Under the pieces are notes generated by a model that did no database searches, was not told where the DNA came from, and saw only the letters and a list, made by a program, of their open reading frames with translations. The translations under genes and the position numbers were made by a program. From positions 14,508,001-14,572,000 of the forward strand of contig OY754468.1 in NCBI GenBank assembly GCA_963575645.1: 64,000 nt of DNA. Direction: 5' to 3'. The stretch is from Xanthostigma xanthostigma. Lineage: Eukaryota > Arthropoda > Insecta > Raphidioptera > Raphidiidae. Below, one piece after another: positions 24,345-63,515 of the stretch. Position 1 is the first letter of the stretch; each line of letters starts with the position of its first letter.

Positions 24345-24575
24345 CTAATTAATACTAAGTGCCTTAAATAATATTATAAAGTGTCCATATTGTGACAGGG
24401 ACGACATCCGTAGTCTCTTCTCGGCTTGAAGATTTTCGCGATCAGATTCCTCGTCGCTCCGTTTTCTCTTCTTTGGATTTTCCGCTGAAAATAGCCGTCG
24501 ACACACTCTCCCTGGCAGCTGCGCTCTGCGTAGATCCGTTCCTCGGGTTGACCTCCTTTTCATTGGTGATTCCAT
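24345..24575 (-). CDS. RRLF small nuclear-type protein, copy 1a
   Basis: 76-residue basic protein, not recognised as any named family. Features: RGTDLRRAQLPGRVCRRLFS, whose CRRLF core matches the RxLF cyclin-docking (Cy) motif found in p21-type CDK inhibitors; then a lysine/arginine nuclear-localisation-like stretch (PKKRKR) at residues 33-38; and a hydrophobic end FIILFKALSIN. The start is the Met at 24575, because all paralogues begin there (MESPMKRR); the longer reading to 24674 is upstream leader. The same protein lies head to head at 24838. TATA on the minus strand lies upstream and AATAAA lies at about 24260 downstream. Function is inferred only from short motifs. Confidence 0.65.
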   Translation of the reverse strand: MESPMKRRSTRGTDLRRAQLPGRVCRRLFSAENPKKRKRSDEESDRENLQAEKRLRMSSLSQYGHFIILFKALSIN

Positions 24576-24837
24576 TTTCTGCTCTTTGATTCCTCTTCGC
24601 TGTTCGCTGGGTGGATGTATAGTGATCTGAACACGCGATTTCAGGTGTATATATACCTGATGAAATGCAATCAACCGTCAACGAACTTTATGACCTCAGA
24701 AACCCCTTTTGTTTTGCAGGTCACAAATTATCTCACGGTTGATTGCACTTTTCAAGGTATATAAACAACTGAAATCGCTTGTTCAGATCATTATACATCC
24801 ACCCAGCGTACAGCGAAGAGGAATCAAAGAGTAGAAA
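24576..24837. promoter_or_regulatory. Symmetric bidirectional promoter, locus 1
   Basis: Mirror-image halves. On each side, moving outward from the centre: TGACCT/AGGTCA half-sites (24690, 24718), CAACCGT/ACGGTTGA boxes (24671-24677, 24736-24743), TATA boxes (TATATATA near 24650 minus; GTATATAA at 24759 plus), and then the start-like box ATCATTATA (plus) or ATCACTATA (minus), about 29-30 bp past the TATA. This predicts start sites near 24789 (+) and 24622 (-). Confidence 0.65.
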
Positions 24838-25068
24838 ATGGAATCACCAATGAAAAGGAGGTCAACCCGAGGAACGGATCTACGCAGAGCGCAGCTGCCA
24901 GGGAGAGTGTGTCGACGGCTATTTTCAGCGGAAAATCCAAAGAAGAGAAAACGGAGCGACGAGGAATCTGATCGCGAAAATCTTCAAGCCGAGAAGAGAC
25001 TACGGATGTCGTCCCTGTCACAATATGGACACTTTATAATATTATTTAAGGCACTTAGTATTAATTAG
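24838..25068 (+). CDS. RRLF small nuclear-type protein, copy 1b
   Basis: Same 76-residue protein as copy 1a on the opposite strand; the two translations appear identical. In the other four loci an RRLF gene faces a PRLV gene, so this locus is exceptional: its two halves are an inverted duplication of the RRLF side. The 3' UTR is interrupted at about 25075 by a LINE and resumes at about 28490, where the AATAAA of this gene lies (28547). Confidence 0.65.
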   Translation: MESPMKRRSTRGTDLRRAQLPGRVCRRLFSAENPKKRKRSDEESDRENLQAEKRLRMSSLSQYGHFIILFKALSIN

Positions 25069-25192
25069 TTTTAGTTTTGATGTAATAATAATAATAATAA
25101 TAATATGAATTTATTGCATAGCCCAATAGGTTACAATCGTCAGTTACAAAGAATACTACGAAGTTACATTACAATAATACCTATACATAATT

Positions 25193-28057
25193 TTATAATA
25201 ATTCATGTATGTTATACGGTTCTTTCGTTATTATGTACTGCTTTAATAAGTTATTAAATTTTTTGCAATTTTTTTCATACTTTATGTTACTTGGCAAATG
25301 TTCATAAAGTTTTATTCCAGTGTATACCGGACCTTTCTCAAAGAAAGTTGTTCTATGAGGAATAATAATAGTATTGTTTCTTGTGTCGTAATGCTTTTCT
25401 TTCTCAGTTGGTTTGTTAAAATAACCCAGTGCACACATATGTTTTAAAACTTCGTAGGCATAAATGCCATATACAGTCATAATTTTATTTTCTTTAAATT
25501 TGCCCCGACATGATTGTCTGTAATGCAGACTGAAGATAAGTCGAATAATTTTTTTTTGAATTTTGAAGACTCTATCCATTTCCGCGGACCTACCCCAGTT
25601 TATTATTCCGTATTTTAACAAGCTATGTGTAAAAGCATAATATATTACCATTAGGTTATTTAAATTAAAATATGATTTCTGTATTTTTAAAATGTAGTAT
25701 TGTCTATTTAGTCTTTTGCAGAGTGCCGTTATGTGGTCAGTCCATTTTAATTTACTGTCTACCTGTAGTCCTAAAAATTTTACCTCGTTACGTTTTTTTA
25801 TGTCTCCTATTAAAAAAGGTCGGTCTGTATTTACATTGTCTTTTATTTTGAATGTTATATAATTTGTTTTGTCCATATTTACTATTAGTTGGTTATTCAG
25901 GCACCAATTTGAGAATTGCTCGATCACACACTTAATTTTTTGTTCTGCTTCATAATAGGAAGATGCTGCTATTAACACTGTAATATCATCAGCATACATT
26001 ATGATTTTATCGGCAGTTATATGATCAATAAGATCGTTGGTAAAGCAAATAAAAAGAAGAGGAGCTAAATTGCTTCCTTGTGGAAGCCCGATTTTTATTT
26101 CTTTTATATGAGATTTATAATTTTCGATTTGTACAAACATCTCGCGATTTTTTAAATAATTTTTAATTAAATTATTTGGTAAGCCTCTTATACCCATTCT
26201 GTATAGTTTTTTCAGAAGATGCTGATGATTTACAGTGTCAAAAGCAGCACTTAAATCAAAGAAAAGACCTATGACAATTTTAGAGTCATCCAACTTTTGT
26301 GTTACAAACTTCGAAAGCTCAAAACAAGCGGATGTTGTTGAAACTTTTTTGCGAAAACCGTGTTGTGCAGAATTTAAAATATTATATTTTTCTAAAAAGT
26401 AATTTAGTCGCTTGCATATTATTTTTTCGATAAGTTTTGCAATTACTGATAATAATGAAATTGGCCGGTAGTTTTTAATATCAAGTTTATCATCTTTCTT
26501 GTGAAGTGGTTTTATTACAGCTGTTTTAATCCTATCTGGAAATACCCCCGTTTGGAAGATCCTATTTATTATAAAAAGAAAAATGTCTAATAGCACTGGC
26601 ATAGAACTTTTCAGAACAATTGTTGGAATTTCATCAAAACCTACAGATATTTTATTTTTAAAAGAATTTACTACTTCCATTATTTCCTTATTATTTGAAG
26701 GATTTAAAAACATACATGAATTAACATTTTCTTTTGGTAGGGTACACTGATTCTGTACGCTATTAAAGTTCTGTTTTAATTTGTCTTTCACAGAATTCTT
26801 GAAATAATTAGCAAAAATATTTACAACGACTTCTAGATTATTAATTACAATATTATTACATTGCAATGCTATGTTATTGTTATTAGTTCTTTTTTTGTCT
26901 AAAGATTTGTTTATTTTTTGCCATAGTTGTTTTGTATTCATATTGCATGTTACCTGATTATTGATGTAATTTTTTTTTGCTTCCGCAACATCTAATTTGA
27001 GCTTTGTTTTGTAATGTTTATAGGTTAACTCCCACTCGGCACTGATATGTTTAAATTTGTATATGTCTCTGAGGTGCTGACTTTTCTGTATAATATCTTG
27101 CGTGACCCAATTTTTTAAATTCTTATTGCTGTTTTTCCGCACAGTAATGAGAGGAAAACTTATGCTAAAACAGAAGTTAAGATTTTCAAAAAAACAACTG
27201 TAAATGTCATTCACGTCATTGCGTGTAAATAAGTATGACCAGTCAATTTTTGATAGTTCATAAATAAATTGTTGTGTGTTACTTTCATTAAACTGTCTTT
27301 TTTTATTTAATTTGGGTGACGAGGATGGCAGATTTTCAGAAATATTTAACACAAGCAGCTGCCCCTTATGATCGGAGATACACGTGTCAAGTATTTGTTC
27401 GTATTTGTGATCAATATTGTCATTAATAACGAAAAAGTCTAAACAAGTTTCAGTGGTGGCGGTTACTCGGGTAGCGACCGAGTCGATTATTTTGCAGTTA
27501 TACCCATTTAATAAATCTATTAGTTCACGTTTTTGGACGGAATCAGTTAAGATATTGATATTGAAATCTCCGCACAAAATAACTTTATTTTTTTCAGGTT
27601 TAATATGTTCTAAGACATCTGTTAACTTATCTGTGAATAATGTTAAATCTCCAGTTGGAGAGCGGTAGATGACGATGATATATAAATTAGAATTATTATT
27701 ATCTTTGATTTTTATTCCTGCACATTCAAAATGTTTCTCAATACACAGTTTCTTCAAATTAATATCTTCATAGCTCATGTTGGAGCTTTTTATGTATAAG
27801 GCAACTCCACCGTGAATGTAAATGCTTCTACAAAAATAGCTGCATAACTTGTACCCATGAAGAATTATCGAGTCAATAGCATCCTCTCTTTGCCAGTGTT
27901 CGCTTAAGCAGAGCACATCTATATTTTCTTTTTTAAGGACCACTTCTAAAAGTTCCACCTTATTTCCGACACATTGTGTATTTTGATGAAGTATTTTTAT
28001 ATCTTTAGTCTTTTCTTTATACTTGCCATTGTCCTGTTCGTCTCCGAAAAAACACAA
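25193..28057 (-). CDS. LINE ORF2: endonuclease-reverse transcriptase, intact
   Basis: 954 codons without interruption. N-terminal AP-like endonuclease: ILHQNTQCVGNK, LCLSEHW, YRSPTGD, CGDFNINIL, TCLDFFVIN and SDHKGQL are the successive catalytic motifs. Reverse transcriptase follows: PLHKKDDKLDIKNYRPISLL, GFRKKVSTT, FFDLSAAFDTVNH, IGLPQGSNLAPLLF, and YADDITVLI (residues about 685-693). A C-terminal region has the usual FLGLQVDSKLKWTDH and a Cys/His-poor end. It overlaps ORF1 by about 41 bp, as in many Jockey/CR1-group LINEs. Length and intact motifs suggest recent activity. No RNase H domain is seen. Fragments of relatives lie at 43060-43785, 47085-47215 and 61460-61640. Confidence 0.9.
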   Translation of the reverse strand: MCFFGDEQDNGKYKEKTKDIKILHQNTQCVGNKVELLEVVLKKENIDVLCLSEHWQREDAIDSIILHGYKLCSYFCRSIYIHGGVALYIKSSNMSYEDINLKKLCIEKHFECAGIKIKDNNNSNLYIIVIYRSPTGDLTLFTDKLTDVLEHIKPEKNKVILCGDFNINILTDSVQKRELIDLLNGYNCKIIDSVATRVTATTETCLDFFVINDNIDHKYEQILDTCISDHKGQLLVLNISENLPSSSPKLNKKRQFNESNTQQFIYELSKIDWSYLFTRNDVNDIYSCFFENLNFCFSISFPLITVRKNSNKNLKNWVTQDIIQKSQHLRDIYKFKHISAEWELTYKHYKTKLKLDVAEAKKNYINNQVTCNMNTKQLWQKINKSLDKKRTNNNNIALQCNNIVINNLEVVVNIFANYFKNSVKDKLKQNFNSVQNQCTLPKENVNSCMFLNPSNNKEIMEVVNSFKNKISVGFDEIPTIVLKSSMPVLLDIFLFIINRIFQTGVFPDRIKTAVIKPLHKKDDKLDIKNYRPISLLSVIAKLIEKIICKRLNYFLEKYNILNSAQHGFRKKVSTTSACFELSKFVTQKLDDSKIVIGLFFDLSAAFDTVNHQHLLKKLYRMGIRGLPNNLIKNYLKNREMFVQIENYKSHIKEIKIGLPQGSNLAPLLFICFTNDLIDHITADKIIMYADDITVLIAASSYYEAEQKIKCVIEQFSNWCLNNQLIVNMDKTNYITFKIKDNVNTDRPFLIGDIKKRNEVKFLGLQVDSKLKWTDHITALCKRLNRQYYILKIQKSYFNLNNLMVIYYAFTHSLLKYGIINWGRSAEMDRVFKIQKKIIRLIFSLHYRQSCRGKFKENKIMTVYGIYAYEVLKHMCALGYFNKPTEKEKHYDTRNNTIIIPHRTTFFEKGPVYTGIKLYEHLPSNIKYEKNCKKFNNLLKQYIITKEPYNIHELL

Positions 28058-28487
28058 ACCTACTGACCTTTACCCCGTAGGGCCAGAAATCAGGATCATT
28101 TAGAATGTTATGTAATGCAAAATCCGCACCGACTTTGAAACAGTTCAAGTCACTTTTGGTTATTAATTTTTCAACAATGAATTCATCGTTCGGACATTTT
28201 TTTCTTAGGTAAATTTTTACCGTTTCTTCTGTAACATCAGGATTTACTCTGCCTATGAACATCCATGTTCTCTTGTTATTTGCCGTAAAGTTTGACTCGC
28301 TTTTGTTGCTTCCAATAATAGATTTTTTATTTCTTCTTTTATACTCTACTTTTGTAAATTTTTCTTCCGTTTCTGAGACACTTGCGCTAGAAAATACTTC
28401 TTCATCATCAGTATCTTCACTGTCCTTCATTTCCGATAAATTACTGCCATCTTCTCTTGTTTTGGAAGTACTTGCATTTGTGGCTGC
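28017..28487 (-). pseudogene. LINE ORF1, 5'-truncated
   Basis: Open from about 28487 to 28017 (Met at 28430, 137 codons). It contains RTWMFIGRVNPDVTEETVKIYL, CFKVGADFAL and DFWPYGVKVSRFVFFRRRTG. Similar blocks end the ORF1 proteins of many arthropod LINEs. The upstream part of ORF1 is missing because the element is 5'-truncated at the UTR junction, so the Met at 28430 is internal rather than a true start. An acidic, Ser-rich stretch (EDTDDEEVFSSASVSETEE) precedes the conserved block. Confidence 0.75.
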
Positions 28488-28488
28488 G

Positions 28489-28575
28489 TATTATGTATAT
28501 AGAATGAATTTTAGTTGTACATATTTTTTGTAAATAATTGTTGACGAATAAAGGCTTTAAAATATTGTGTATTTC
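28489..28575 (+). terminator. Resumed RRLF 3' UTR and poly(A) signal
   Basis: GTATATAGAATG, then TTGTTGACGAATAAAGGCTT, match the 3' UTR of the other RRLF genes, for example GTTGTTGACGAATAAAAATG at 63587. The AATAAA is kept. A transcript of copy 1b would have to cross the 3.4 kb LINE to reach it. Confidence 0.65.
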
Positions 28576-29515
28576 TTTTATTGATATTTTATTTTTTCAA
28601 TAACTAAAATTGAATAATTTATCTACGAATTGATGACCAATTAAATAGACAAAAAAACATAAAATAAAATATTTAGAGTTAAGACGACCAAGAGAAGACA
28701 TGTGTCATCAACAAAAAATTAGGATCATTTTATAATATTATTTAAGGCTCTTAGTATGACGTAGTTTTATAATAGAAAATATATTGTATAAAAGACCACG
28801 CATAAACTGGCACAGTGAGGAGAAAAAAGCCTGTTCGTAATGTTGTTTAACGGAGTAGCTCATTATACCAGCAGCCAGCAACGACAGTGAGTCAGTTGTC
28901 TGCAATTTCTATCTACCTCGTGTGCTAGTGATATGTCGTTTTCATTAATTAAGTTACTAGAATTTCGTTAGATGACAGGGCAAAATTTAGTTACCAGAAT
29001 TTTACATAAAATGTTGTCAGGCGTCCCACAATGGCTCACATTTTTTTTATAAACGATTATTTTATCTATTGTCATTGCGAGCACTAAATTTCAAATCGGT
29101 TGGATATGTGAAAGTGGCAAAAAATGGCTTGAAAAATTATGAAGTTGAATAAGAGCTTATAAAAATAAATTTTATGAACAGAATAATACCAGATGCGTTT
29201 TAAAACGACAACAATAGTTCTATATTCATGGATAATTTCCAGATTTTTTGGTAATTAAAGAACGATAGCAATTTGGAAGAAGACTAGATTATTTTTTTAT
29301 ATGAAGTTTAAATACGCCTAAAGAAATTATTAAAATTTGAGAAGGGTTAACCGATTATTTAAATAAATAATTGACTTCAAAAGTAAGCATATTTAACATT
29401 GGTCTTATGGCAAAGCGACGGATCCGCGACATGTTTTAATAATTTTAATTTGTCGAAGAAAATGAAAAAAACTAATTAAAAGTGAAGACATTGATAAAGA
29501 AATTAAAAAAAAATA
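28576..29515. other. No gene recognised
   Basis: AT-rich without coding signal. About 28715-28850 repeats the fragment at 23895-24010 (TTATTTAAGGCTCTTAGTA and AAAAAGCCTGTTCGTAA), so the LINE-bearing RRLF locus is bracketed by related direct fragments. Confidence 0.5.
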
Positions 29516-29519
29516 AAAG

Positions 29520-30532: not shown

Positions 30533-30539
30533 TTATACA

Positions 30540-31434: not shown

Positions 31435-32604
31435 CTACCGACTATGATGAAAAGGGCGCCAGGACACGAGGGGCCACACAAGAGTTGTCTTACTTCTCAG
31501 ATTGTATACGTTAAGATCCTCACCGGCAGTGTAATTAGAAGTGGCGTTGTCTTCTGGTTCTGGTTGCACATTTTCAGCATTATGCTGATTTTCATATTTC
31601 TCAAATAGATTTGGGATATCATCAAACAAATCTACGTAATTCTTACTTCGATTTTCACATTTAATAATTTGATTGACATGACGTTTCCACGTAGCTTTGG
31701 TGTCGTATGTTTTGATCAAATAAGTTTTTGCGCCAAGATTTTTAATTATTATCGCTTTTCTCCACGAAATTTTCCCCGGACGTGAGTAGTCTTTGACAAA
31801 CACAGACTGACCAACTTCAAACTTCACCTTTCTTTTTCCCCCGTAATATTTGCGTTGTAGTAGTTGTTTTTCCTGCACGTAATTTCTTATTTTTTCAGTA
31901 TCAATCGTTTTATTAATATTTTGTTTATTAGGTGGTTTAATAAGGTCTAATTTAGTTCTCATAGACCTGTTGAATAGGAGATACGTTGGAGACATTCCTG
32001 TTGTAGAATGTATATTATTTCTGTATTGAAACAAAAACTTTGCAATAATAATATTCATATTGTTTTTAGAACACGACGAACGCTTAATTGCATTTTTTAT
32101 CAATTTGACTCCGTTTTCAGCTAATCCATTAGTTGCTGGGTGTCCAACAGGGGTAGTGCAATGCTTAATATTAAACGTTTTTAAAAAATCTTGGAATTGT
32201 CTACTGCAAAACTGCGTACCATTATCGAATACTAAAATTTTAGGCAAACCATATCTTGCAAAAATTTCATACAATTTTTCAATGGTAGCATCAGCGCTAG
32301 TAGATTCTCTCATGTCAATGCATTCAAGCCACTTGGAATATGCATCCACTATAATTAAATACGATTTACCCATGAAGGGACCCAAAAAATCAATATGAAT
32401 ACGTTCCCAGGGTTCATCTGGCCATTGCCATGTTGTTAACGAAGCTCGACCGGGATTATTACTATTTGCTAAACATTGTTCGCATGATTTGGACATTGCC
32501 TCGATATTTTTGTCCATTTGGGGCCACCAGCAATAAGCTCTAGCTAAATTTTTCATTTTCATAATGCCTAAATGTGAACTGTGTACTTCCTTTAAAATAT
32601 TCAA
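31435..32604 (-). pseudogene. pol: Ty3 integrase with C-terminal extension
   Basis: Integrase part of the gypsy pol, separated from RT by the Penelope insert. HSSHLG with CEQCLANS forms the HHCC zinc module. The catalytic triad lies in HIDFLGPF, VFDNGTQF and GLAENGVK. A chromodomain-free C-terminal region (VKFEVGQSVFVKDY, TYLIKTYD) follows and an acidic tail ends it. The apparent first codon at 32604 is a TTG right at the insertion boundary; the real frame came from upstream (RIIVPKKF). The domain itself is open and complete. Confidence 0.85.
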
Positions 32605-33806
32605 TAAATAAAATTATCGACCAATTTTTCAGACAATATATTAACAAACAATATAAAATTAATACATTAACGTTTCAATCCGGATTTGGACCTTCTTCAG
32701 AATTGATCTAAAAAATATAAAAATAATTAATAATTAAATATAATTCGCTTTTTTATAGATTTTTTCAAAATTAATTATGATTATCAAAATAATGAAAAAA
32801 TAATAACAAACAATTTTTTATTAAGTAGTCATGGAAATAATAATTTGTGAGTACCTAAAAAAGAAATAAAAATTATTAAAAACAAAAATTATTTCAATAT
32901 AATATTATATATATTACTTAAATTTTCTGTATCTAATTGAGCATTGAGAGAATTTTTATTTGATTTTATATGTAACATTTCCGAAATATTTCTTTTAAAA
33001 AAATTAGTTTCATTATCTAAAATTTTAATATTATTCCAATTAATTTTGTGGTCAAGTTCTAATTTGTGTTTAGTTATTACATTGTGTTTGTCAGGCATTA
33101 ATTTGTGATTATTTTGATGCTCTTTTATTCTTGTTTTAAGAGCTCTTTTAGTTTGACCAATATAATTCTTAGCACAATTTTCACAATTAATTTTATATAC
33201 AACATTATGCTTTTGAAATTTATTAATTTTATCTTTTCCCTTTTTAATAATTTTATCAAGTTTATTATTAACATAAAAAACAGTTTTTATATTTAAATTT
33301 TTAAGAAATGAACTAAATTTTATTGAAATATTTTTGAAAAAAGGAATTACTATAAAAGGACAATCAACATTATTAACATTGTTTTGTGAATTATGACTTT
33401 TTGTTAATTTATTAATTCTAATTTTGATAAATTTATTTATAAATTTGAGAGGATAAGAATTGGCAAGTAGAATTTGACGAACTAAATTAAAATTATTTAA
33501 GTGATATTTTGGTTTAGATAATAAAATAGATTTATCAATAAGATTATAAACCATAGCTATCTTTTGATTTATTGGATGATTAGAATAAAAATTTAAAACT
33601 CTACCAGAACTAGTTGGTTTATTAAACCAGTTAAATTCAACATTACCGTTATTATTAATAATTAGTGTATCTAGAAAACTAATTTGATTATTATTTTCTA
33701 TTTCATGAGTGAATTTAATTTTAGGGTGAAAATTATTAAATATACAAATCATATAGTTTATTTTATCTTTAGGAATAATGCAAAAAATATCGTCAACATA
33801 TTCATA
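32600..33806 (-). mobile_element. 5'-truncated Penelope-like element in the Ty3 pol
   Basis: Reads YEYVDDIFCIIPKDK at its start, i.e. the catalytic VDD motif and the remaining RT C-terminus, then GRVLNFYSNHPINQK, and a GIY-YIG endonuclease domain with VVYKINCENCAKNYIGQTKR (33130-33210). The frame stops at 32889 and is followed by a 3' region with a hammerhead-like motif. It begins in the same frame as gypsy pol, so the combined reading of 1230 codons is an accident of insertion. The boundary on the other side is where NILKEVHSSHLG of integrase resumes. Confidence 0.85.
32668..32706 (-). ncRNA. Hammerhead-like motif, Penelope copy 1
   Basis: On the minus strand CTGAAGA (32700-32694) and GAAAC (32676-32672) flank a potential stem II (GGTCC with GGATT, loop AAATCC). 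CUGANGA...GAAA is the conserved hammerhead core, and Penelope-like elements are known to carry such ribozymes. One unpaired A precedes stem II, so cleavage ability is uncertain. Confidence 0.45.
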
Positions 33807-41813: not shown

Positions 41814-42032
41814 CTAATTAATACTAAGTGCCTTAAATAATTTTATAAAATGTCCATATTCTGAGAGCGACGAAATCCGAAGTCTCTTTTCGGCTTGAAG
41901 ATTTTCGCGATCAGATTCCTCGTCGTTCCGTTTTCTCTTCTTTGGATTCTCCGCTGAAAATAGCCGTCGACACACTCTCCCTGGCAGCTGTGCTCTGCGT
42001 AGATCCGTTCCTCGGGTTGACCTCCTTTTCAT
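41814..42032 (-). CDS. RRLF small nuclear-type protein, copy 2
   Basis: 72 residues from the second Met of the family (MKRRSTRGTD). The usual first ATG is still present but is followed at once by TAA (GAA to TAA change), so translation must start 12 bases later. CRRLFS and PKKRKR are retained; the end reads FIKLFKALSIN. An AATAAA for this gene lies near 41720 (minus). It faces PRLV copy 2 across a bidirectional promoter. Confidence 0.6.
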   Translation of the reverse strand: MKRRSTRGTDLRRAQLPGRVCRRLFSAENPKKRKRNDEESDRENLQAEKRLRISSLSEYGHFIKLFKALSIN

Positions 42033-42332
42033 TGGCGATTACATTTTCTGCTCTTTGCTTGTTGATTCAGCGTATAATGATTATCACAAGTCAGTTCGCG
42101 ACAATTTATAGCCTGATGAGTTCAGTCAACCGTAACCGAATTTATGACCTGCGAAAACCCTTTTGTTTACAGGTCAACAATTATCCTACGGTTGATTGCA
42201 CACCTCAGAGTATATATTAGGTCCAAAATGACTTGAGGAAATCATTATAAGCCCAGCCAGCTAGCGAAGAAGAACAGAATATCTACGCACAATCACAGGA
42301 CATTTAGTCGATTTCAAGTAGGATATCTGAAG
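42033..42332. promoter_or_regulatory. Symmetric bidirectional promoter, locus 2
   Basis: For PRLV: ACGGTTGATTGCA (42188-42200), TATATATT (42211-42218), ATCATTATA (42241-42249, 30 bp after the TATA). For RRLF on the minus strand: ACGGTTGACTG (42133-42123), TATAAAT (42110-42104), ATCATTATA (42081-42073, 29 bp on). TGACCT (42145) and AGGTCA (42171) lie between, facing outward. The same boxes in the same order on both sides predict coordinated expression. Confidence 0.7.
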
Positions 42333-42731
42333 ATGCCACGTCTAGTCCGCAGTTCGAAGAAGATGTCGCCATCAAAGAAGAGGTCGTTGTCAATCGACGA
42401 AACGGGAGGACTTCCAGTGAAAAAGGCGAGAATGTCAGCAGAAATCGCCGAAGTCGTAGATAGCTACTTTGTACCAGACGTACAAGAAGATCCCAAAGAC
42501 AGCGAATTGATGGTGGAGTCAATAATGGCATCGCTGAAGAAAACTGAGCGACGCATTGCCAAACCGGTGTTCAGGCTACCGAAGAAACCAGCTTTCAAGG
42601 AAGAGGAGACATCTTTGCCCGGGTTGGTTGAAGCAAAAGAAGGGAAATCGGAAGATGCAATGGAGACATTTTGGAAGAACGAAGACTTGCCTCGTCTGCT
42701 TCGAAAATTTAGACGTTTAAATTTAAGATAG
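42333..42731 (+). CDS. PRLV small nuclear-type protein, copy 2
   Basis: 132 residues, family not recognised. N-terminus MPRLVRSSKKMSPSKKRSLS has a minimal CDK-type site (SPSKK) inside a basic stretch; PVKKARM at about 29-35 is a second NLS-like patch. The middle is acidic (EDPKDSELMVESIM). The C-terminus DLPRLLRKFRRLNLR has R-R-L-N-L, which fits the RxLxL form of the cyclin-docking motif seen in E2F1-type proteins. No membrane segment or signal peptide. AATAAA lies near 42798. It lacks a five-residue block present in copies 3 and 4. Confidence 0.6.
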   Translation: MPRLVRSSKKMSPSKKRSLSIDETGGLPVKKARMSAEIAEVVDSYFVPDVQEDPKDSELMVESIMASLKKTERRIAKPVFRLPKKPAFKEEETSLPGLVEAKEGKSEDAMETFWKNEDLPRLLRKFRRLNLR

Positions 42732-43845: not shown

Positions 43846-44290
43846 ACAAGCGTTCACGCAGTCAATCATTGCTCCGGCGTCCCGGTCGAGATGTTGTCTA
43901 TCCAGAATGATCGACTGTCTGTTTTCTAGGTGCACCGCGAGTCTTTTGATGACATGGCTCTTGGCGCTCATAACAAAGTTCAGTAGTCGCCACGCGGCTT
44001 CTGGACTGCCCACGTAGCGACAGTCGGCGTACCCGGTCACATCGTCATAATTCATCGGTACGTCGGCTCGTCCATTGCCGTCCAGATCGACGCCGACCGG
44101 CCGTACTATGGCGGCGTCGTTCCCTTTGTTTATGTATTTATGGATGTACTTCACCGTCCGATAAGAAGTACATCCCTCGATATTGATGTGACAACGATAC
44201 TTCTTTAGCAGGTACGGATTGTACGGCACCACCCAGGCATTGCCGTAACGACGACCGGTTCGCGGGTCCGCAAAGTACCGTGCGTTGTCT
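43846..44290 (-). pseudogene. Helitron replicase fragment
   Basis: Reads RRYGNAWVVPYNPYLLKKYRCHINIE at its start (upstream of the Met at 44232), then KYIHKYINKGND and YVGSPEAAWRLL. These are characteristic of Helitron-encoded Rep/helicase proteins. Only about 145 residues remain; the rest of Rep and the whole helicase are missing. Codon use is GC-rich (for example GTCGGCGTCGATCTGGACGG, minus strand), unlike every neighbour. Confidence 0.8.
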
Positions 44291-46498: not shown

Positions 46499-46714
46499 AT
46501 GAATTATATTGGGCAAACAAAAAGAGCGCTTAAAACACGAATTAGAGAACATCGTAGTAATCTAAAATTAAACACTGATAAGCAAAATGTCGTTACTAAG
46601 CATAAAATTGACTATGACCACAAAATTAATTGGAATAATGTTAAAATTTTAGATAATGAAAGTAATTATTTTAAAAGAAGTACCTATTTCGGAAATGTTA
46701 TACATAAAATCTAA
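46499..46714 (+). pseudogene. GIY-YIG endonuclease end of Penelope copy 2
   Basis: NYIGQTKRALKTRIREH is the central part of the GIY-YIG fold (the YIG half, with the catalytic Arg). It is preceded out of this short frame by VVYKISCEDC. The last residues diverge from copy 1 after FFKR/YFKR because of a frameshift. Confidence 0.75.
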
Positions 46715-47979: not shown

Positions 47980-48384
47980 CTATCTTAAATTTAAACGTTT
48001 AAATTTTCGAAGCAGACGAGGCAAGTCTTCGTTCTTCCAAAATGCCTCGCTCTTCACTGTCTCCATTGCATCTTCCGATTTCCCTTCTTTTGCTTCAACC
48101 AACCCGGGTACAGATGTCTCCTCTTCCTTGCAAGCTGGTTTCTTCAGTAGCCTGAGCACCGGTTTGGCAATGCGTCGCTCAGTTTTCTTCAGTGATGCCA
48201 TTATTGACTCCACCATCAATTCGCAGTCTTTGGGATCTTCTTGTACTTCTGGTACAAAGTAGCTCTCTACGACTTCGGCAGACATTCTTGCCTTTTTCGC
48301 TGGAAGTCCTCCCGTTTCGTCGATTGACAACGACCTCTTCTTTGATGGCGACATCTTCTTCGAACTGCGGACTAGACGTGGCAT
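47980..48384 (-). CDS. PRLV small nuclear-type protein, copy 3
   Basis: 134 residues. It differs from copy 4 by an in-frame loss of three residues after KKARMSAE and keeps the VKSEA block before FWKNEDLPRLLRKFKRLNLR. Basic N-terminus, SPSKK, PAKKARM and the C-terminal KRLNL motif are all retained. The 3' AATAAA-type signals lie near 47880 on the minus strand. It faces RRLF copy 3. Confidence 0.6.
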   Translation of the reverse strand: MPRLVRSSKKMSPSKKRSLSIDETGGLPAKKARMSAEVVESYFVPEVQEDPKDCELMVESIMASLKKTERRIAKPVLRLLKKPACKEEETSVPGLVEAKEGKSEDAMETVKSEAFWKNEDLPRLLRKFKRLNLR

Positions 48385-48725
48385 CTTCAGATATCCTTCT
48401 TGGAGTCGACTAAATGTCCTGTGATTGTGCGTAGATCTTCTGTTCTTCTTCGCTAGTTGGCTGGGCGTATAATTATTTCCTCAAGTCATTTTGGACCTAA
48501 TATATTATACCCCGAGAAGTGCAATCAACCGTAGGATAATTATTGACCTATAAACAAAAGGGTTCTCGCAGGTCATAAATTCAGTTACGGTTGAATAAAC
48601 AGAAAATTTTCGTACGGTGGACTGAACACGTCAGGCTATAAATTCCCGCGAACTGACTTATGATAATCATTATACGCTGAATCAACAAGCAAAGAGGACT
48701 CCAAGAGCAGAAAATATAATCGCCA
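48385..48725. promoter_or_regulatory. Bidirectional promoter, locus 3
   Basis: TCAACCGT (48525-48532, for PRLV), ACGGTTGA (48587-48594) and ACGGTGGACTG (48614) for RRLF, TATAAAT (48637-48643), and ATCATTATA (48666-48674), 29 bp after the TATA. The same AGGTCA half-site is at 48570. About 40 bp longer than locus 2 because of a duplicated ACGGTTGA box. Confidence 0.65.
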
Positions 48726-48944
48726 ATGAAAAGGAGGTCAACCCGAGGAACGGATCTACGCAGAGCACAGCTGCCAGGGAGAGTGTGCCGACGGCTATTT
48801 TCAGCGGAGAATCGAAAGAAGAGAAAACGGAACGACGAGGAATCTGATCGCGAGAATCAACAAACCGAGAAGAGACTACGGATGTCGTCCCTATCAGAAT
48901 ATGGACATTTTATAATATTATTTAAGGCACTTAGTATTCATTAG
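48726..48944 (+). CDS. RRLF small nuclear-type protein, copy 3
   Basis: 72 residues starting at MKRRSTRGTD. The ancestral first ATG is now ATA and is followed by TAA, as in copy 2 but with the abortive start codon removed as well. CRRLFS and a slightly changed basic stretch (NRKKRKR) are kept. The end reads FIILFKALSIH. AATAAA lies at 49034. Confidence 0.6.
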   Translation: MKRRSTRGTDLRRAQLPGRVCRRLFSAENRKKRKRNDEESDRENQQTEKRLRMSSLSEYGHFIILFKALSIH

Positions 48945-51208: not shown

Positions 51209-53753
51209 GCAAACTAACATGTAGTTCTGATTTTTTAATATATTGTTAGGACCACTACCAGTAGCGTATATCCAAGTTTGCAGCTTCGAAAGACCTGTGC
51301 TAACTTTGCAGCACTCAAAAAACTGCGAAATTTTCGCACTTTTTTTGGTATTCTCAATATAGGTCTTAAACTATGCATTTTTTTATAAAATTTTTTTTAT
51401 ACGTTTTTAAGTAGACTAAAATTGCTACAATCTGAGACAAGAACCAGCTCTGTAGGTTCAATACTTACCGAGATACAGCTTTCCAAAAATTGACCAGTTT
51501 TTTCAACAAAGTGAAATTTTAAGATTTGGTCAATTTTTGACCCCGATATCGGGGAAAATACTCATTTTAAGGGAAATATCATAGGAACATATATTGTAGC
51601 AAATGTAATTAGCTTTAATTTAAGCAGAGAACGACGTCTGTAGGCCATATAGTTTACTCACAAATTTTAAAAATCCAAAAAATGAGAAAACTGCATTTTC
51701 GCAAATTTAAATTTAATACCTAATAATCGTTATGTAAATCCATTCAGTGATTTTAATGTGGTTGAGTAACCAAATTGAGTAGCATAGTAGCATAAACGAG
51801 TAACATAATAAAAAAAATAACATAATTGATAACATCATAAAAAAATTATGCAGTTTTTGACAAAATACCGTCGTATTTCAGTCATTTTGTAAAAAATATT
51901 TACAAATTATATTCATGAACCTTCCTCGTTTATCGCTCTTTCTATTACCGAAAACAATTTCAAAATCCGGTGCGTGGTTTAGTAGAAGAGAGCGGAGAAA
52001 AAGACAGAGACTTTGTTTTTAACTGTGCAGTCTTTGACAAAATACCGTCGTATTTCAGCCATTTTGAAAAAATATTTACAAATTGTATACAGAAACCTTC
52101 CTCGTATATTGATCTTTCTATTAGCGAAAACCATTTCAAAATCCGGTGCGTGGTTTAGAAGAAATGACCGGTGAAAAAGACAAAGACAGTCAGAGACTCT
52201 GATTTTAACTATGTAGGCTTTGTTAAAATTCCGTCGTAGTTCAGTTATTTTGTAAAAAATATTTATAAATTATATACAGAAACCTTCCTCGTTTATTGCT
52301 CTTTCTACTATCGAAAACCATTTTTAGGTTCGGCGCATGGTTTAGAAGAAGTGAGCGGAGAAAAAGACAAAGACAGACAGAGATTGTTTTTAACTATGCA
52401 GTCTTTGACAAAACAACGTCGGTGTTCTTCTAAACTATGCGCCGGATCGTAAAATGGTTTTCGGTAATAGAAAGAGCGATAAGCATGGAAGGTTTCTGTA
52501 TATAATTTGTAAATAGTTTTTACAAAATGCCTGAACTACGACAGTGTTTTAGCTCAGACTGCATAGTTAAAAATAGAGCTTCTGTCTGTCTTTGTCTTTT
52601 TCTCAGCTCACTTCTTCTAAGCCATGCGCCGGATCTAAAAATGGTTTTCGGTAGTCGAAAGAGCAATAAACGAGGAAGGTTTCTGTATATAATTTATAAA
52701 TATTTTTTACAAAATACCTGAACTACGACGCAATTTTAGCAAAGACTACATAGTTAAAATCAGAGTCTCAGACTGTCTTTGTCTTTTTCACCGGTCATTT
52801 CTTCTAAACCACGCACCGGATTTTGAAATGGTTTTCGCTAATAGGAAGATCAATATACGAGGAAGGTTTCTGTATACAATTAGTAAATATTTTTTCAAAA
52901 TGGCTGAAATACGACGGTATTTTGTCAAAGACTGCACAGTTAAAAACAAAGTCTCTGTCTTTTTCTCCGCTCTCTTCTACTAAACCACGCACCGGATTTT
53001 GAAATTGTTTTCGGTAATAGAAAGAGCGATAAACGAGGAAGGTTCATGAATATAATTTGTAAATATTTTTTACAAAATGGCTGAAATACGACGGTATTTT
53101 GTCAAAAACTGCATAATTTTTTTATGATGTTATCAATTATGTTATTTTTTTTTATTATGTTACTCGTTTATGCTACTATGCTACTCAATTTGGTTACTCA
53201 ACCACATTAAAATCACTGAATGGATTTACATAACGATTATTAGGTATTAAATTTAAATTTGCGAAAATGCAGTTTTCTCATTTTTTGGATTTTTAAAATT
53301 TGTGAGTAAACTATATGGCCTACAGACGTCGTTCTCTGCTTAAATTAAAGCTAATTACATTTGCTACAATATATGTTCCTATGATATTTCCCTTAAAATG
53401 AGTATTTTCCCCGATATCGGGGTCAAAAATTGACCAAATCTTAAAATTTCACTTTGTTGAAAAAACTGGTCAATTTTTGGAAAGCTGTATCTCGGTAAGT
53501 ATTGAACCTACAGAGCTGGTTCTTGTCTCAGATTGTAGCAATTTTAGTCCACTTAAAAACGTATAAAAAAAATTTTATAAAAAAATGCATAGTTTAAGAC
53601 CTATATTGAGAATACCAAAAAAAGTACGAAAATTTCGCAGTTTTTTGAGTGCTGCAAAGTTAGCACAGGTCTTTCGAAGCTGTAAACTTGGATATACGCT
53701 ACTGGTAGTGGTCCTAACAATATATTAAAAAATCAGAATACATGTTAGTTTGC
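51209..53753. repeat. 2.5 kb near-perfect palindrome (foldback element)
   Basis: The arms mirror each other around about 52481. GCAAACTAACATGTA at 51209 returns inverted at 53739-53753, CCACTACCA at 51252 at 53703-53711, and an open frame 51970-52158 (+) matches 52804-52992 (-) with one residue changed. Each arm carries tandem units of about 185 bp (with ACCGTCGTATTTCAG and GAAACCTTCCTCGTTTAT). No protein is recognised. Probably a foldback-type mobile element. Confidence 0.9.
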
Positions 53754-56097: not shown

Positions 56098-57785
56098 AGT
56101 ATATGCCCAAGTAATTCAAGAATTACAAGGCGCGAAATATACCCCGGTGTTTTGTTTGAAAATCGGCGTATATATTTAACTACACTTGGAGCTTAATAAT
56201 ATAACTTAATTTACTTAATCGGAGAAAAAAATAACAGTTGAAAATAATGAAACACAGAAAGAAAAAAATAATTTCAATAACTTCATGGTTCTCTATGTAA
56301 TATGTTATTATGTCATGCAAAAATTAAACAAAGAACTACCTAACTAACGTCTTCAGAACAAAAGAACAACGGATTTTTTTTTCAAATTATTTCTGAATTT
56401 ATGAGTTTAGAAAAAAACTTTCATAACTTTCTTGTAAAAACAGATAAAAAATTAAACCGTTATGAAAAGTACCCAAATATTATATAAAAACAACTTTATA
56501 GCATATATGCGCCGACTTTAGCTCAAAGAATTTTTTACAAAACTTTCTTTAAAATAGAATAATAAAACATTATAAAAAGTACACCATTATTATATAAAAA
56601 ACAACGATGACATGAATCTCTTTTGCGCAGGCGCCGATTTTTCCCAAAAATTATACAAAACTCTTGTAAAAATAGACCGAATAATAAACTGTTATGAAAA
56701 GTATACCATTGTTATACATATACAAACAACTTTATAACTTATACCTACTCTGCGCATGCGCCGACTTTCCCTCAAAAAAACATTTTACAAAACTTTCCTG
56801 TAAAGTAGAAAACTAAACATTATAAAAATTACACCATTATTAATTAAAAAAAAATTATGGCATGTATCTCTTTTGCGCATGCGCTGATTTTTCCCAAAAA
56901 TTATACAAAACTCTTGTAAAAATAGACCGGATAATAAACTGTTATGAAAAGTATACCATTGTTATATACAAACAACTTTATAACTTATACCTCCTCTGCG
57001 CATGCGCCGACTTTCCCTCAAAAAAACATTTTACAAAACTTTCTGGTAAAGTAGAATAATAAAACATTATAAAAAGTACACCATTATTATATAAAAAACA
57101 ACTATAGAATGTATCTCTTTTGCGCATGCGCCGATTTTCCCAAAAATTATACAAAACTATTGATAAAATAGATCGAATTAGAAACTGCTATGAAAAGTAT
57201 ACCATTGTTATATACAAACAACTTTATAACTTATACCTCCTCTGCGCATGCGCCGACTTTCCCTCAAAAAAAACATTTTACAAAACTTTCTTGTAAAGTA
57301 GAATAATAAAACATTATAAAAAGTACACCATTATTATATAAAAAACAACTATAGCATATATCTCTTTTGCGCATGCGCCGATTTTCCCAAAAATTATACA
57401 AAACTCTTGTAAAAATAGATCGAATAATAAACTGTTATGAAAAGTATACCATTGTTATATACAAACAACTTTATAATTTATATTAATAAAAATACAACGA
57501 CGGCATATATCTCTTTTGCGCAATGCGCATGCGCCGATTTTCCCCAAAAAATTTACAAAAATTTCTAGTAAAAATAGAATAATAAACCGTTTTAAAATCT
57601 ATACTATTATTATATCAAACAACATTATAAGAGATATTATATTCTTTTACGCATGCGCCGATGTTCCCCAAAAACAATAGGCCACTTCATATTTGCATAT
57701 CAAACATCCTCCCAAAATTTGGTTTCAATCCGCTCATCTGTGGTGATGGAATGGTAAGAAATGTCAAAAGTGACGTTTGCATCTG
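56098..57785. repeat. Tandem repeat with GCGCATGCGC cores (copy 2)
   Basis: Starts CCAAGTAATTCAAGAATTAC like the block at 5974 and ends near TGACGTTTGCATCTGTC. About a dozen TGCGCATGCGCCGA-type cores alternate (GATTTTCCC and GACTTTCCC types) in a dimer of about 245 bp. Compared with copy 1 it has more sub-units but only one large unit. Confidence 0.8.
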
Positions 57786-58522: not shown

Positions 58523-58753
58523 CTAATTAATACTAAGTGCCTTAAATAATTTTATAAAATGTCCATATTCTGATAGCGACGAAATCCGTAGTCTCTTCTC
58601 GGCTTGAAGATTTTCGCGATCAGATTCCTCGTCGTTCCGTTTTCTCTTCTTTGGATTCTCCGCTGAAAATAGCCGCCGACACACTCTCCCCGGTAGCTGT
58701 GCTCTGCGTAGATCCGTTCCTCGGGTTGACCTCCTTTTCATTGGCGATTCCAT
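58523..58753 (-). CDS. RRLF small nuclear-type protein, copy 4
   Basis: 76 residues, complete (MESPMKRRSTRGTD). VCRRLFS and PKKRKR are retained, the acidic DEESDREN segment and basic EKRLRIS follow, and the end is FIKLFKALSIN. The AATAAA for this gene is at about 58435 on the minus strand. It faces PRLV copy 4. Confidence 0.65.
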   Translation of the reverse strand: MESPMKRRSTRGTDLRRAQLPGRVCRRLFSAENPKKRKRNDEESDRENLQAEKRLRISSLSEYGHFIKLFKALSIN

Positions 58754-59082
58754 TTTCTGCTCTTGGAGTCCTCTTTGCTTGTTGATTCAGCGTACAATGA
58801 TTATCACAAGTCAGTTCGCGGCAATTTATAGCCTGACGAGTTCAGTCAACCGTACGAAAATAAAGTTCTGTTTATTCAACCGTAACTGAATTTGTGACCG
58901 GCGAAAACCCTTTTGTTTACAGGTCAATAATTATCTTACGGTTGATTGCACACCTCAGGGTATATATTAAGTCCAAAATGACTTGAGGAAATCATTATAC
59001 ACCCAGCCAACTAGCGAAGAAGAACAGAAGATCAACGCACAAACACAGGACCTTTAGTCGATTCCAAGAAGGATATCTGAAG
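58754..59082. promoter_or_regulatory. Bidirectional promoter, locus 4
   Basis: RRLF side (minus): TCAACCGT at 58846 and again at 58876, TATAAAT near 58830. PRLV side: ACGGTTGA (58938-58945), TATATATT (58961-58968), ATCATTATA (58991-58999), 30 bp after the TATA. AGGTCA lies at 58921. Confidence 0.65.
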
Positions 59083-59496
59083 ATGCCACGTCTAGTTCGC
59101 AGTTCGAAGAAGATGTCGCCATCAAAGAAGAGGTCGTTGTCAATCGACGAAACGGGAGGACTTCCAGCGAAAAAGGCAAGAATGTCAGCAGAAATTTCCG
59201 AAGTTGTAGAGAGCTACTTTGTGCCAGAAGTACAAGAAGATCCCAAAGACTGCGAATTGATGGTGGAGTTAATAATGGCATCACTGAAGAAAACTGAGCG
59301 ACGCATTGCCAAACCGGTGTTCAGGCTACCGAAGAAACCAGCTTGCAAGGAAGAGGAGACATCTTTGCCCGGGTTGGATGAAGCAAAAGAAGGGAAATCG
59401 GAAGATGCAATGGAGACAGTGAAGAGCGGGGCATTTTGGAAGAACGAAGACTTGCCTCGTCTGCTTCGAAAATTTAAACGTTTAAATTTAAGATAG
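59083..59496 (+). CDS. PRLV small nuclear-type protein, copy 4
   Basis: 137 residues, the longest copy. MPRLVRSSKKMSPSKKRS, PAKKARM, acidic EDPKDCELMVEL, FRLPKKPACKEEETSLPG, the VKSGA block, and the C-terminal FKRLNLR are all present. Because it contains both segments that are missing in copies 2/5 and 3, I take it as closest to the ancestral length. AATAAA lies near 59564. Confidence 0.65.
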   Translation: MPRLVRSSKKMSPSKKRSLSIDETGGLPAKKARMSAEISEVVESYFVPEVQEDPKDCELMVELIMASLKKTERRIAKPVFRLPKKPACKEEETSLPGLDEAKEGKSEDAMETVKSGAFWKNEDLPRLLRKFKRLNLR

Positions 59497-60658: not shown

Positions 60659-60740
60659 AAAGATATTGATAACATTAATCAATCTAAATATGAAACTAAG
60701 AAATTCTTATTAAAAAAAGTTTTACCTTTCCAACCCACAA

Positions 60741-61135
60741 GTGGGCAATGGTACTAGTTTAGGGCAAAAATCACTTTTTAAAAATTTTACAATATCTTTA
60801 CGTTTTGAGGTCCCCCGAATCCAAAAAACATATTTTTGGAAAAACTCTGTGCGTCTGTTTGTCTGTGAACACGATACAGGTCAAACGGATGGGCGGATTG
60901 AAACCAAAGTTTGGGAAGATGTTTGGCATGCAAATATGAAGAGCCCTATTGTTTTTGGGGAAAATCGGCGCTTGCGCAGAAGAGATATATGTTAAAACGG
61001 TATTTTTTATATAATAATGATATACTTTTCAAAACAGCCTATTATTCTATTTATTTTTTCAAGAAAGTTTTGTAAAAAATTTTTTTTTTTAAACTTTATA
61101 GTTTCGAAAATATTTTGATAATAAAAAAAATTATC
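60741..61135 (-). repeat. Inverted fragment of the GCGCATGCGC repeat family
   Basis: Minus-strand similarity to the end of the 5974/56098 repeats: GGATTGAAACCAAAGTTTGG, then ATGCAAATATGAAG and AAATCGGCGCTTGCGCAG. The palindromic core is degenerate here. The open frame across it is not a gene. Confidence 0.65.
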
Positions 61136-62440
61136 CGCTCTTTTGTTTTATGGATCTGTCAGAAATAAACTAGTTAGGCAGGCTTTGATTAATTTTTACA
61201 TGACCTGGAACATAATATGTAGGTAACCATGGCAACGAATAGTTAATATCATATTGAATACTAGCCATTACCCGCGTCACCTCACGCGATATTAGAAATT
61301 TTATTTTCTTTATTATAATCTAATGTCAACATTTTTGAAGTTGGAATGGTACCGTCGCCCAATTGGCCGTAATTTTTTTGTCTCTACAGGAATATATTAT
61401 AAATTGGTAACATATTTTACTCTGACTGTCGACTGATAATATGTACTTTTGTAAAATCACCGTATCAATAAATATAATAGAATAGAATAAACATTTATTG
61501 CTGAACCCATTTTGGGAAACAATACGTCACAAGAGAAGAAAAAAAAATAGTTACAAAATCCATGTAAGGAGTAAGGATCCATATATATTAAAAATTCTTT
61601 TAGCTCTTTATTAAGCTTTAAGGATTTTTTCAATTTTAAAAAAGGACCTAGTACAGACGAAAAATGGACCTAGAACTGACGAAAAAAGGACCTAAGTAAT
61701 TTTTTTTTTGCTCTCCAAATGCGGAAATAGAATGTGAGGACCTTTTTTTTGCTCTGCAAATTTTTGGCCTACGGTCAAATTTATATCAGCTATGTGGCCC
61801 GCGGTCAATTTTTGATCAGCTATGTTGCCCGGCGATCAAAAGATTACCCGCCCCTGATCTATATACATAAAAAACACTAATTAAAATCAAGTGTTAGATG
61901 GGTAAGCACAAAAAACAAACGAAAATGATTACCCAGATAAAAAAATAGCTTCCAAGTTTTCCTCTTAAGGACAATAAGATGGCACTCCATGCTTATGTAG
62001 CAATAAATATAATGAAAACATATTATTTTATTCATAATAATAGATCATGCAAAATCAATTATAAAAAAATCGTTAAAAATACAAACTATAAATAAAATAC
62101 ACGTTGTACTGTACATACAGTACCTATGTAGCTTAAGTTGCGTATGTCAGATGCAATGTAAACTGCGAACGTAGTGTTTAACTATAACAATTATTTAATT
62201 GTTTTAGTTGAATACGCAAAGGTTTGCATTTCTAATTGATATAAATATATGTGTATTTGGAAGGAAGGAGGAAGTCAGGTGGTGGACGCACGTGGCTATG
62301 CCAGCGCGAGCTGGCGTAGGTCGACGTTGGTATCGTAAATAAATCAATATTAAACCAAATTCAAGAGTATTAATAATTTGAAAGAACCTGATAACCACCA
62401 ACACTACAACTTTATATAAATCAGGAAAATGGCAGTTAAC
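61136..62440. other. Repeat remnants, LINE 3' end (-) at 61440-61640
   Basis: 61460-61640 is the inverted LINE 3' end (CATTTATTGCTGAACCCATT) with its flank ATATGTACTTTTGTAAAATC, as at 43803. 61640-61850 repeats GGACCTA and GGTCAA motifs without a gene. 62190-62340 is GC-richer with no domain. Confidence 0.5.
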
Positions 62441-62555
62441 AAACAAAATACATGAATGTATTATCAAATGATTTATTAACAAAATAAGATTCATATACAA
62501 AAAAAATACTAAATACTAAAATCTTTCAAATACCTATATACAAAATCTAACAAAA

Positions 62556-62957
62556 CTATCTTAAATTTAAACGTCTAAATTTTCGAAACAGACGAGGCAA
62601 GTCTTCGTTCTTCCAAAATGTCTCCATTGCATCTTCCGAATTCCCTTCTTTTGCTTCAACCAACCCGGGCACATATGTCTCCTCTCCCTTGAAAGCTGGT
62701 TTCTTCGGTAGCCTGAACACCGGTTTGGCAATTCGTCGCTCAGTTTTCTTCAGCAATGCCATTATTGACCCCACCATCAATTCGCAGTCTTTGGGATCTC
62801 CTTGTACTTCTGGCACAAAGTAGCTATCTACGACTTCGGCAATTTCTGCAGACATTCTTGCCTTTTTTGATGGAAGTCCTCCCGTTTCGTCGATTGACAA
62901 CGACCTCTTCTTTGATGGAGACGACATCTTCTTCGAACTGCGGACTAGACGTGGCAT
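62556..62957 (-). CDS. PRLV small nuclear-type protein, copy 5
   Basis: 133 residues. One Ser is inserted (KKMSSPSKKRS), and the five-residue VKSxA block is absent as in copy 2. C-terminal FRRLNLR is kept, with one change in LPRLFRKF. AATAAA lies on the minus strand downstream. It faces RRLF copy 5. Confidence 0.6.
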   Translation of the reverse strand: MPRLVRSSKKMSSPSKKRSLSIDETGGLPSKKARMSAEIAEVVDSYFVPEVQGDPKDCELMVGSIMALLKKTERRIAKPVFRLPKKPAFKGEETYVPGLVEAKEGNSEDAMETFWKNEDLPRLFRKFRRLNLR

Positions 62958-63284
62958 CTTCAGATATCCTTCTTGGAATCGACTAAATGTCCTGTGATTG
63001 TGCGCAGATTCTGTTCTTTTTCGCTAGTTGGCTGGGCGTATAATGATTTCCTCAAGTCATTTTGGACCTAATATATACCCTGAGGTGTGCAATTAGCCGC
63101 AGGATAATTGTTGACCTGTAAACAAAAGGGTTTTCGCAGGTCATAAAATCAGTTACGGTGGAATAAACAGAAATTTATTATCGTACGGTTGACTGAACAC
63201 GTCAGGCTATAAATTGCCGCGAACTGACTTATGATAATCATTATACGCTGAATCAACAAGCAAAGAGGACTCCAAGAACAGAAA
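62958..63284. promoter_or_regulatory. Bidirectional promoter, locus 5
   Basis: PRLV side (minus): TATATATT-type TATA near 63070; its ACGGTTGATTGCA box is altered (read on plus as GCAATTAGCCGCAGGATA). RRLF side: ACGGTTGACTG (63186), TATAAAT (63210), ATCATTATA (63238-63246). An AGGTCA half-site is at 63138. The damaged PRLV box suggests weaker PRLV expression. Confidence 0.6.
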
Positions 63285-63515
63285 ATGGAATCGCCAATGA
63301 AAAGGAGGTCAACCCGAGGAACGGATCTACGCAGAGCACAGCTGCCAGGGAGAGTGTGTCGACGGCTATTTTCAGCGGAGAATCCAAAGAAGAGAAAACG
63401 AAACGACGAGGAATCTGATCGCGAAAATCTTCAAGCCGAGAAGAGACTACGGATGTCGTCCCTATCAGAATATGGACATTTTATAATATTATTTAAGGCA
63501 CTTAGTATTAATTAG
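63285..63515 (+). CDS. RRLF small nuclear-type protein, copy 5
   Basis: 76 residues, full MESPMKRR start, VCRRLFS, PKKRKR and FIILFKALSIN. The 3' UTR is undamaged to GTTGTTGACGAATAAAAATG at 63587-63606, so this copy shows the normal gene end. Confidence 0.65.
   Translation: MESPMKRRSTRGTDLRRAQLPGRVCRRLFSAENPKKRKRNDEESDRENLQAEKRLRMSSLSEYGHFIILFKALSIN

Follow-up and report, generated by a model that had tools for sequence, protein, structure and literature searches.

Divergent gene pairs on inverted-repeat promoters form an amplified family in Xanthostigma xanthostigma and may act on cyclin-dependent kinases

Results

Five head-to-head gene pairs in the window

The window analyzed here, a 64,000-nucleotide stretch of the Xanthostigma xanthostigma genome (G000:C5:14508001-14572000, in an assembly of 623 Mb and 28 contigs), contains five loci at which two small genes are transcribed away from each other across a short promoter. 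We call the two genes and their proteins R (RRLF) and PRLV (or P), and a diverged single PRLV relative elsewhere in the genome P0. The open reading frames (ORFs) listed in an earlier note on this DNA are all present, with 72–76 amino acids for RRLF and 132–137 for PRLV, and so is the layout that it described, namely four RRLF/PRLV head-to-head loci and a fifth with two RRLF copies. Altogether, six R and four PRLV copies form four divergent R/PRLV pairs and one R/R pair, with intergenic gaps of 262–335 bp (taken between matches). Identity to the first copy is 92–100% for R and 89–95% for PRLV. Two of the six R copies have lost the first ATG and can begin only at Met5, which yields a 72-residue protein: the long form of the copy at 41814 has a stop at codon 2, and the copy at 48726 has a triplet other than ATG as codon 1. 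The features are as follows, with the basis of each call in parentheses (UTR, untranslated region; LINE, long interspersed nuclear element).

24345-24575, minus strand: RRLF copy R24b, 76 amino acids, within the R/R palindrome (ORF, copy comparison)
24576-24837, unstranded: R/R intergenic palindromic promoter, 262 bp, arms 90% identical over 124 aligned bases (arm alignment)
24838-25068, plus strand: RRLF copy R24a, coding sequence equal to that of R24b, 231/231 (ORF, alignment)
28488-28610, plus strand: remaining part of the R24a 3′ UTR past a LINE, with three Pumilio-type sites and AATAAA (homology, motifs)
28678-28758, plus strand: older, decayed RRLF C-terminal fragment, 52% over 27 amino acids, one stop, E 6e-4
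41814-42032, minus strand: RRLF copy, 72 amino acids from Met5, codon-2 stop in the long form (ORF)
42045-42332, unstranded: R/PRLV bidirectional inverted-repeat promoter (arm alignment)
42333-42731, plus strand: PRLV copy, 132 amino acids (ORF)
47980-48384, minus strand: PRLV copy, 134 amino acids (ORF)
48385-48713, unstranded: R/PRLV bidirectional inverted-repeat promoter (arm alignment)
48726-48944, plus strand: RRLF copy, 72 amino acids from Met5 (ORF)
58523-58753, minus strand: RRLF copy, 76 amino acids (ORF)
58754-59082, unstranded: bidirectional inverted-repeat promoter, a TATA-like box and start block on each side (arm alignment)
59083-59496, plus strand: PRLV copy, 137 amino acids (ORF)
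62556-62957, minus strand: PRLV copy, 133 amino acids (ORF)
62958-63284, unstranded: R/PRLV bidirectional inverted-repeat promoter (arm alignment)
63285-63515, plus strand: RRLF copy, 76 amino acids (ORF)
63516-63610, plus strand: R 3′ UTR with two TGTANATA sites and AATAAA (motif search)

All close copies found lie in divergent pairs

Genome-wide searches, whose counts are lower bounds, returned at least 51 close copies of R, on contigs C5 and C13, and no diverged R relative at E ≤ 0.001. The 33 matches to PRLV comprise at least 31 close copies, of which one contains an internal stop, along with two diverged relatives, at C5:477617 (P0) and C9:5053079. When sorted by position, all 82 close copies found fall into 41 divergent pairs, 31 of them R/PRLV and ten R/R, which bears out the paired multicopy family proposed in the earlier note; neither PRLV/PRLV pairs nor singletons occur among these 82. 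The gap is 262 or 270 bp in R/R pairs and 287–363 bp in R/PRLV pairs.

The copies found are confined to three regions on two contigs. At C5:10546150-10583633, 12 consecutive pairs strictly alternate in orientation, from which we conclude that duplication probably went by way of inverted dimers; the rest of C5 is less regularly ordered. The pairs share flanking DNA on both sides, in blocks that are interrupted by differing elements and locally rearranged, and the flank pieces are mostly 82–93% identical, with some at 74–79% and some inverted. Four R/R pairs without any PRLV lie at G000:C13:17617826-17866637, in two sets about 206 kb apart.

Most copies are protein-coding genes under selection

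We fetched loci containing 31 R and 30 PRLV genes, from which 29 full-length copies of each were used in selection tests, 30 3′ UTRs of each were examined and 30 of the 41 pairs provided promoters. Within the window, synonymous and nonsynonymous changes number 15 and eight, respectively, for R (P value 6e-5 to 5e-4 versus neutrality) and 11 and 20 for PRLV (P value 0.10–0.27). The 29-copy sets contain 76 synonymous and 37 nonsynonymous changes in R (P value <1e-17, omega ~0.16–0.19) and 127 and 164 in PRLV (P value <1e-9, omega ~0.40–0.48); these P values are too small owing to relatedness and gene conversion among the copies, and the direction is clear. Insertions and deletions in the window PRLV copies measure 3, 9 and 15 bases, R has none, and noncoding gaps take many lengths from 1 to 30. 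Within the stretch examined, AATAAA follows the stop codon in 26 of 30 R genes (24 of them at 60–100 nt) and in 25 of 30 PRLV genes (all at 60–100 nt), and one PRLV copy is without the usual stop codon. Most copies are real protein-coding genes.

The shared promoter is an inverted duplication

The R-side and PRLV-side halves of the window promoters align, with AGGTCA, TACGGTTGA, TATA and the start block in conserved order, and the inverted arms of the four R/PRLV pairs are 75–78% identical over 84–110 aligned bases. The two sides are therefore homologous, and the common promoter is an inverted duplication. Among the 30 promoters, AGGTCA/TGACCT is present at least once in all 30 and CAACCGT in 29. 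An exact copy of the ATCATTATA start block is seen in 27, of which 14 have two, and every promoter has at least two TATA-like motifs. The early-zygotic motif CAGGTAG is found four times in the window and in none of its R/PRLV or R/R promoters.

Clear homology between R and PRLV is confined to the promoters and the start of the 5′ UTR. A comparison of the two as coding paralogs gave shuffle P values of 0.39 for protein and 0.007–0.17 for DNA, depending on the piece and the shuffle, which does not establish that relationship. Because P0 has only about the last 40 nt of the 5′ UTR in common with PRLV (blastn hits), the simplest history would be that a P0-type coding part joined an R-type promoter within an R/R palindrome; we infer this direction of acquisition, in which PRLV gained the R-type promoter.

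Gene conversion was examined in one R/R palindrome, R24a/R24b, and appears to have occurred there: the coding sequences are identical at 231/231 positions, the promoter arms at 112/121 (plus nine in gaps) and the 3′ UTRs at 91/108. A LINE at ~25081-28480 lies antisense in the 3′ UTR of R24a, beginning ~12 nt past the stop codon; it carries an endonuclease and reverse transcriptase ORF and a further ORF at 28017-28430, and its ends are placed by breaks in homology.

One or more copies of the motif TGTANATA are present in 27 of 30 3′ UTRs for R and in 27 of 30 for PRLV, and the reversed motif is present in four and two, respectively. Dinucleotide shuffles gave P values of 0.000–0.042 for TGTANATA in five R 3′ UTRs and of 0.116 and 0.015 in two PRLV 3′ UTRs. 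The Pumilio-type form UGUANAUA, a predicted site, is likewise present in 27 of 30 3′ UTRs of each gene. In PMC4995099, UGUACAUA, UGUAUAUA and UGUAGAUA are given as Pumilio sites, in hb NRE2, hb NRE1 and bcd, respectively. The Pumilio-type sites suggest germline or early-embryo control of the R and PRLV mRNAs.

An orphan family with a chorion-type organization

A search of 5.8 billion proteins, in which shared five-residue words were required, returned ten candidates for PRLV, none at E ≤ 1, and no candidate for R. The set includes insect proteins (the LINE has a Chilo hit), so this absence of relatives is meaningful. No relative of R or PRLV was found in viral contigs, no match to PRLV (the only query) in prokaryote contigs and no Pfam match to either protein above chance; in the PDB, single PRLV or R sequences gave nothing at E ≤ 10 and an R profile gave nothing. 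Among the papers found in literature searches, no title or abstract opening describes a paired family of such kind. On our best reading, R and PRLV constitute an orphan, amplified gene-pair family of the host, in agreement with the host gene amplification that the earlier note had offered as one of two origins; within the reach of the searches, the protein family is new.

The same note was aware of no described family with this organization, and in this respect it was wrong: in PMC4639761, silkmoth chorion HcA/HcB pairs are strictly head-to-head and 330 nt apart, with a shared promoter containing two TATA boxes, and the chorion locus has many pairs, some of them reversed, with gene conversion and gene regions more alike than their flanks. 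The R/PRLV family closely resembles these pairs, being multi-pair, subject to gene conversion and head-to-head on a common short promoter in all 41 R/PRLV and R/R pairs (gaps of 262–363 bp). It differs in also containing R/R pairs and in promoter halves that are visibly inverted copies, and whereas chorion genes are two-exon genes for secreted proteins of the eggshell, R and PRLV are single-ORF genes for basic, probably nuclear proteins. The organization is thus of an already known, chorion type.

R as a candidate cyclin-docking protein

The CRRLF motif is found in every one of the 31 R copies that were fetched from the 51 or more in the genome, including a subgroup only ~83% identical, a count of motif presence alone. 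VCRRLFSAE is part of the longest run of R residues that shows no amino-acid change (0/37 nonsynonymous, 7/76 synonymous), and the chance that nine of 76 codons escape 37 changes is ~0.009 (calculated by hand). Loose RxL matches number three in R versus 0.95 in shuffles (P value 0.05) and two in PRLV versus 1.6 (P value 0.49); the strict forms, RRLF or KRLNL, have P values of ~0.05–0.08 each. Taken by themselves, the motifs are less striking than at first sight.

CRRLF is also carried by p21. CIP/KIP inhibitors (Pfam CDI, PF02234) share this p21-type motif with R, but the CDI domain is theirs and R is without it. The genome has four CDI matches, on C10, C10, C6 and C3 (above the cut-off on C10 and C6), none of them at an R locus. 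Human cytomegalovirus pUL21a is, like R, a small protein with an RRLF-type motif, which binds cyclin A2 according to PMC4231158; pUL21a differs in being viral and in having a site that binds the anaphase-promoting complex/cyclosome (PMC4231158), and it is likened to R by description alone. From its sequence, R is probably a cyclin-docking protein, and for R a mechanism acting through cyclin is plausible.

The earlier note had read docking motifs into both proteins and had made that reading depend on conservation of the RxL residues. The RRLF motif of R is invariant in the 31 fetched copies, whereas the KRLNL motif of PRLV is changed in three of 29 full-length copies and in P0 (TRLNL), so that only the first of the two motifs is strictly kept. 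In the 29 PRLV tails, the F, R, N and last L show no amino-acid change and the basic position of the RxL has four.

A cyclin-like core in PRLV

PRLV, P0 and the C9 copy have a conserved core composed of MPRLxRSS and a DPxxCExMxxSIMASL-like stretch, which bears a weak resemblance to the helix at the N-terminus of mitotic cyclins. This likeness was first noticed by eye with human cyclin B1, so that a PDB search is not an independent test of it; the genome's own cyclin A is independent. Human cyclin B1 (CCNB1) gave shuffle P values of 3e-5 versus P0, 0.03 versus window PRLV and 2e-4 versus the C9 copy, and P0 versus the genome's own cyclin A gave 0.0024. Among 506 background pieces, none matches the score of P0 against cyclin B1 and one matches its score against cyclin A. 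Comparison of the PRLV core and mitotic cyclin profiles with hhalign gave a P value of 0.0015, with a probability of 16.8%, over 33 columns. A PRLV-family profile found nothing in six frames of the cyclin loci (best E 4.2), none of eight PRLV-family members matches the cyclin box (Cyclin_N, PF00134) and none of the genome's 18 Cyclin_N matches is at an R/PRLV locus. Descent of the PRLV core from a mitotic cyclin N-terminus is a lead, to which we assign a little less than an even chance.

The genome also contains divergent extra mitotic-cyclin-like genes, L041/L053 (C9:21.72 Mb) and L044/L046 (C4:6.907 Mb); those on C9 are two tandem copies with stops.

Other features of the window

An 83-bp satellite at 12143-17748 forms two nearby arrays in opposite orientation, with 24 and 30 register copies. 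The telomere repeat TTAGG gave 0 matches, a count set aside because simple repeats may be skipped in such a search. At 9033-12267 (minus strand), a Baculo_F-type envelope ORF adjoins an integrase ORF in an errantivirus-like retroelement. A large inverted repeat at 51225-53738 has arms of 593 and 572 nt that are 98–99% complementary and encloses a ~187-bp tandem array. A ~250-bp tandem unit is common to 56411-57674, 6530-8056 and 60885-61378, one of these places being the interrupted flank of the 59-kb pair. A fragment at 43828-44300 (minus strand) looks like a Helitron Rep/helicase by eye, without Pfam support, and an ORF at 46499-46714 (plus strand) is GIY-YIG-like (E 0.0016, below the cut-off), perhaps from a Penelope-like element, with related DNA at 32603-33519.

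Discussion

We tentatively favor a reading in which R and PRLV form a host, amplified gene-pair family, and not a mobile element, that acts on cyclin and cyclin-dependent kinase (CDK), and we give this whole reading somewhat less than half of the probability. The genes for two small basic proteins would be maintained head to head, each pair on a single palindromic promoter, and multiplied into arrays on C5, with R/R pairs also on C13, and gene conversion would help the copies to stay alike. Short, TATA-driven and apparently intronless mRNAs could permit bulk production in a brief stage, with Pumilio-type control holding or clearing them, and the outcome would be a pulse of two nuclear proteins that alters cyclin–CDK activity; expression, nuclear location, cyclin binding and timing are here what we infer from the genes themselves. 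R would dock on the cyclin hydrophobic patch through VCRRLFSAE, which adjoins its PKKRKR signal, and, having no kinase-blocking domain, would serve there as a competitor or a substrate. PRLV, kin of the diverged single gene P0, would have joined R through gain of the R-type promoter, and its conserved core may be what remains of the N-terminus of a mitotic cyclin.

Several results weigh against a cyclin target. A strict RRLF motif appears in ~5–8% of R shuffles, and R is conserved as a whole. The CDI domain PF02234 is absent from R, with no Pfam match in nine of nine R sequences, and AlphaFold models of the two proteins are poor (mean predicted local distance difference test (pLDDT) scores of 58 and 61). 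Of 29 full-length PRLV copies, 26 retain the C-terminal [KR]xLxL and three have it changed, and P0 does not have it. In PDB searches, cyclin B1 ranked second and third with the PRLV-family profile (E 0.36 and 0.41) and first and second with P0 (E 0.21 and 0.25), none of which is significant. Two of three own cyclins miss 0.05 against P0, namely cyclin B3 (0.068) and the divergent C9 cyclin (0.059), and a canonical cyclin B exon for comparison was not found in the genome searches. A more specific version of the cyclin reading is unlikely, namely that dozens of pairs deliver a two-part effector, R as a minimal p21-like docking protein and PRLV as a cyclin-derived fragment without cyclin box, in a timed pulse of CDK inhibition in the germline or early embryo.

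The strongest competitor, which has a substantial minority of our confidence, retains the same amplified pair family and directs it at chromatin, RNA or another nuclear target, so that RRLF would belong to a basic or helical segment and its cyclin look would be due to chance. Both proteins are basic (isoelectric points of 10.9 and 9.5) with low-confidence folds, chance alone would give about one or more generic RxL matches and the RxL of PRLV is not strictly conserved, all of which would suit such a target; the position of VCRRLFSAE within the longest unchanged stretch of R and the separate, weak cyclin resemblance in PRLV speak instead for cyclin.

We consider it rather improbable that the family is selfish or a sex-chromosome-type ampliconic family engaged in genetic conflict. 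Stellate and Dox are examples of the drive/suppression type, to which R/PRLV is likened by description alone, and hairpin RNAs from R/R pairs that act against R are conceivable. The palindromes, the inverted arrays, the 82 copies and a setting rich in transposable elements fit such an origin, but R is under purifying selection rather than changing fast, and in the one R/R pair of the ten that was examined, both sides retain their promoter elements.

That R and PRLV are genes of a virus or transposable element, the other origin raised in the earlier note, is very improbable, even though they are multicopy, small and paired, with retroelements adjacent. Neither has a relative in viral contigs or a Pfam or PDB match above chance, and the copies found occupy three regions on two contigs within both-side shared, locally rearranged flanks; this negative comes without a systematic search for terminal repeats, target-site duplications or other ORFs in the common flanks, and it is drawn from how confined the copies are, from their common flanking DNA and from the absence of any element or viral relative. 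The idea of chance ORFs or decaying pseudogenes inside a segmental duplication, for which the PRLV counts in the window, the two R copies minus their first ATG and the PRLV copies with an internal stop or without the usual stop might be cited, is refuted for most copies by the 29-copy tests, the frame-preserving indels, the TATA-like motifs in 30/30 promoters and the AATAAA signals, and it retains next to no probability.

If the cyclin–CDK reading is true, this lineage would control its cell cycle partly through the dosage of genes from an orphan family; amplification of CDK regulators in the manner of histone or chorion genes is not otherwise known. With the cyclin part set aside, the occurrence of all 82 copies found in divergent pairs, R/R pairs included, together with promoter halves that are inverted copies, makes a clean case of palindromic promoter origin, and the R/PRLV pairs illustrate how an unrelated gene becomes linked to such a promoter.
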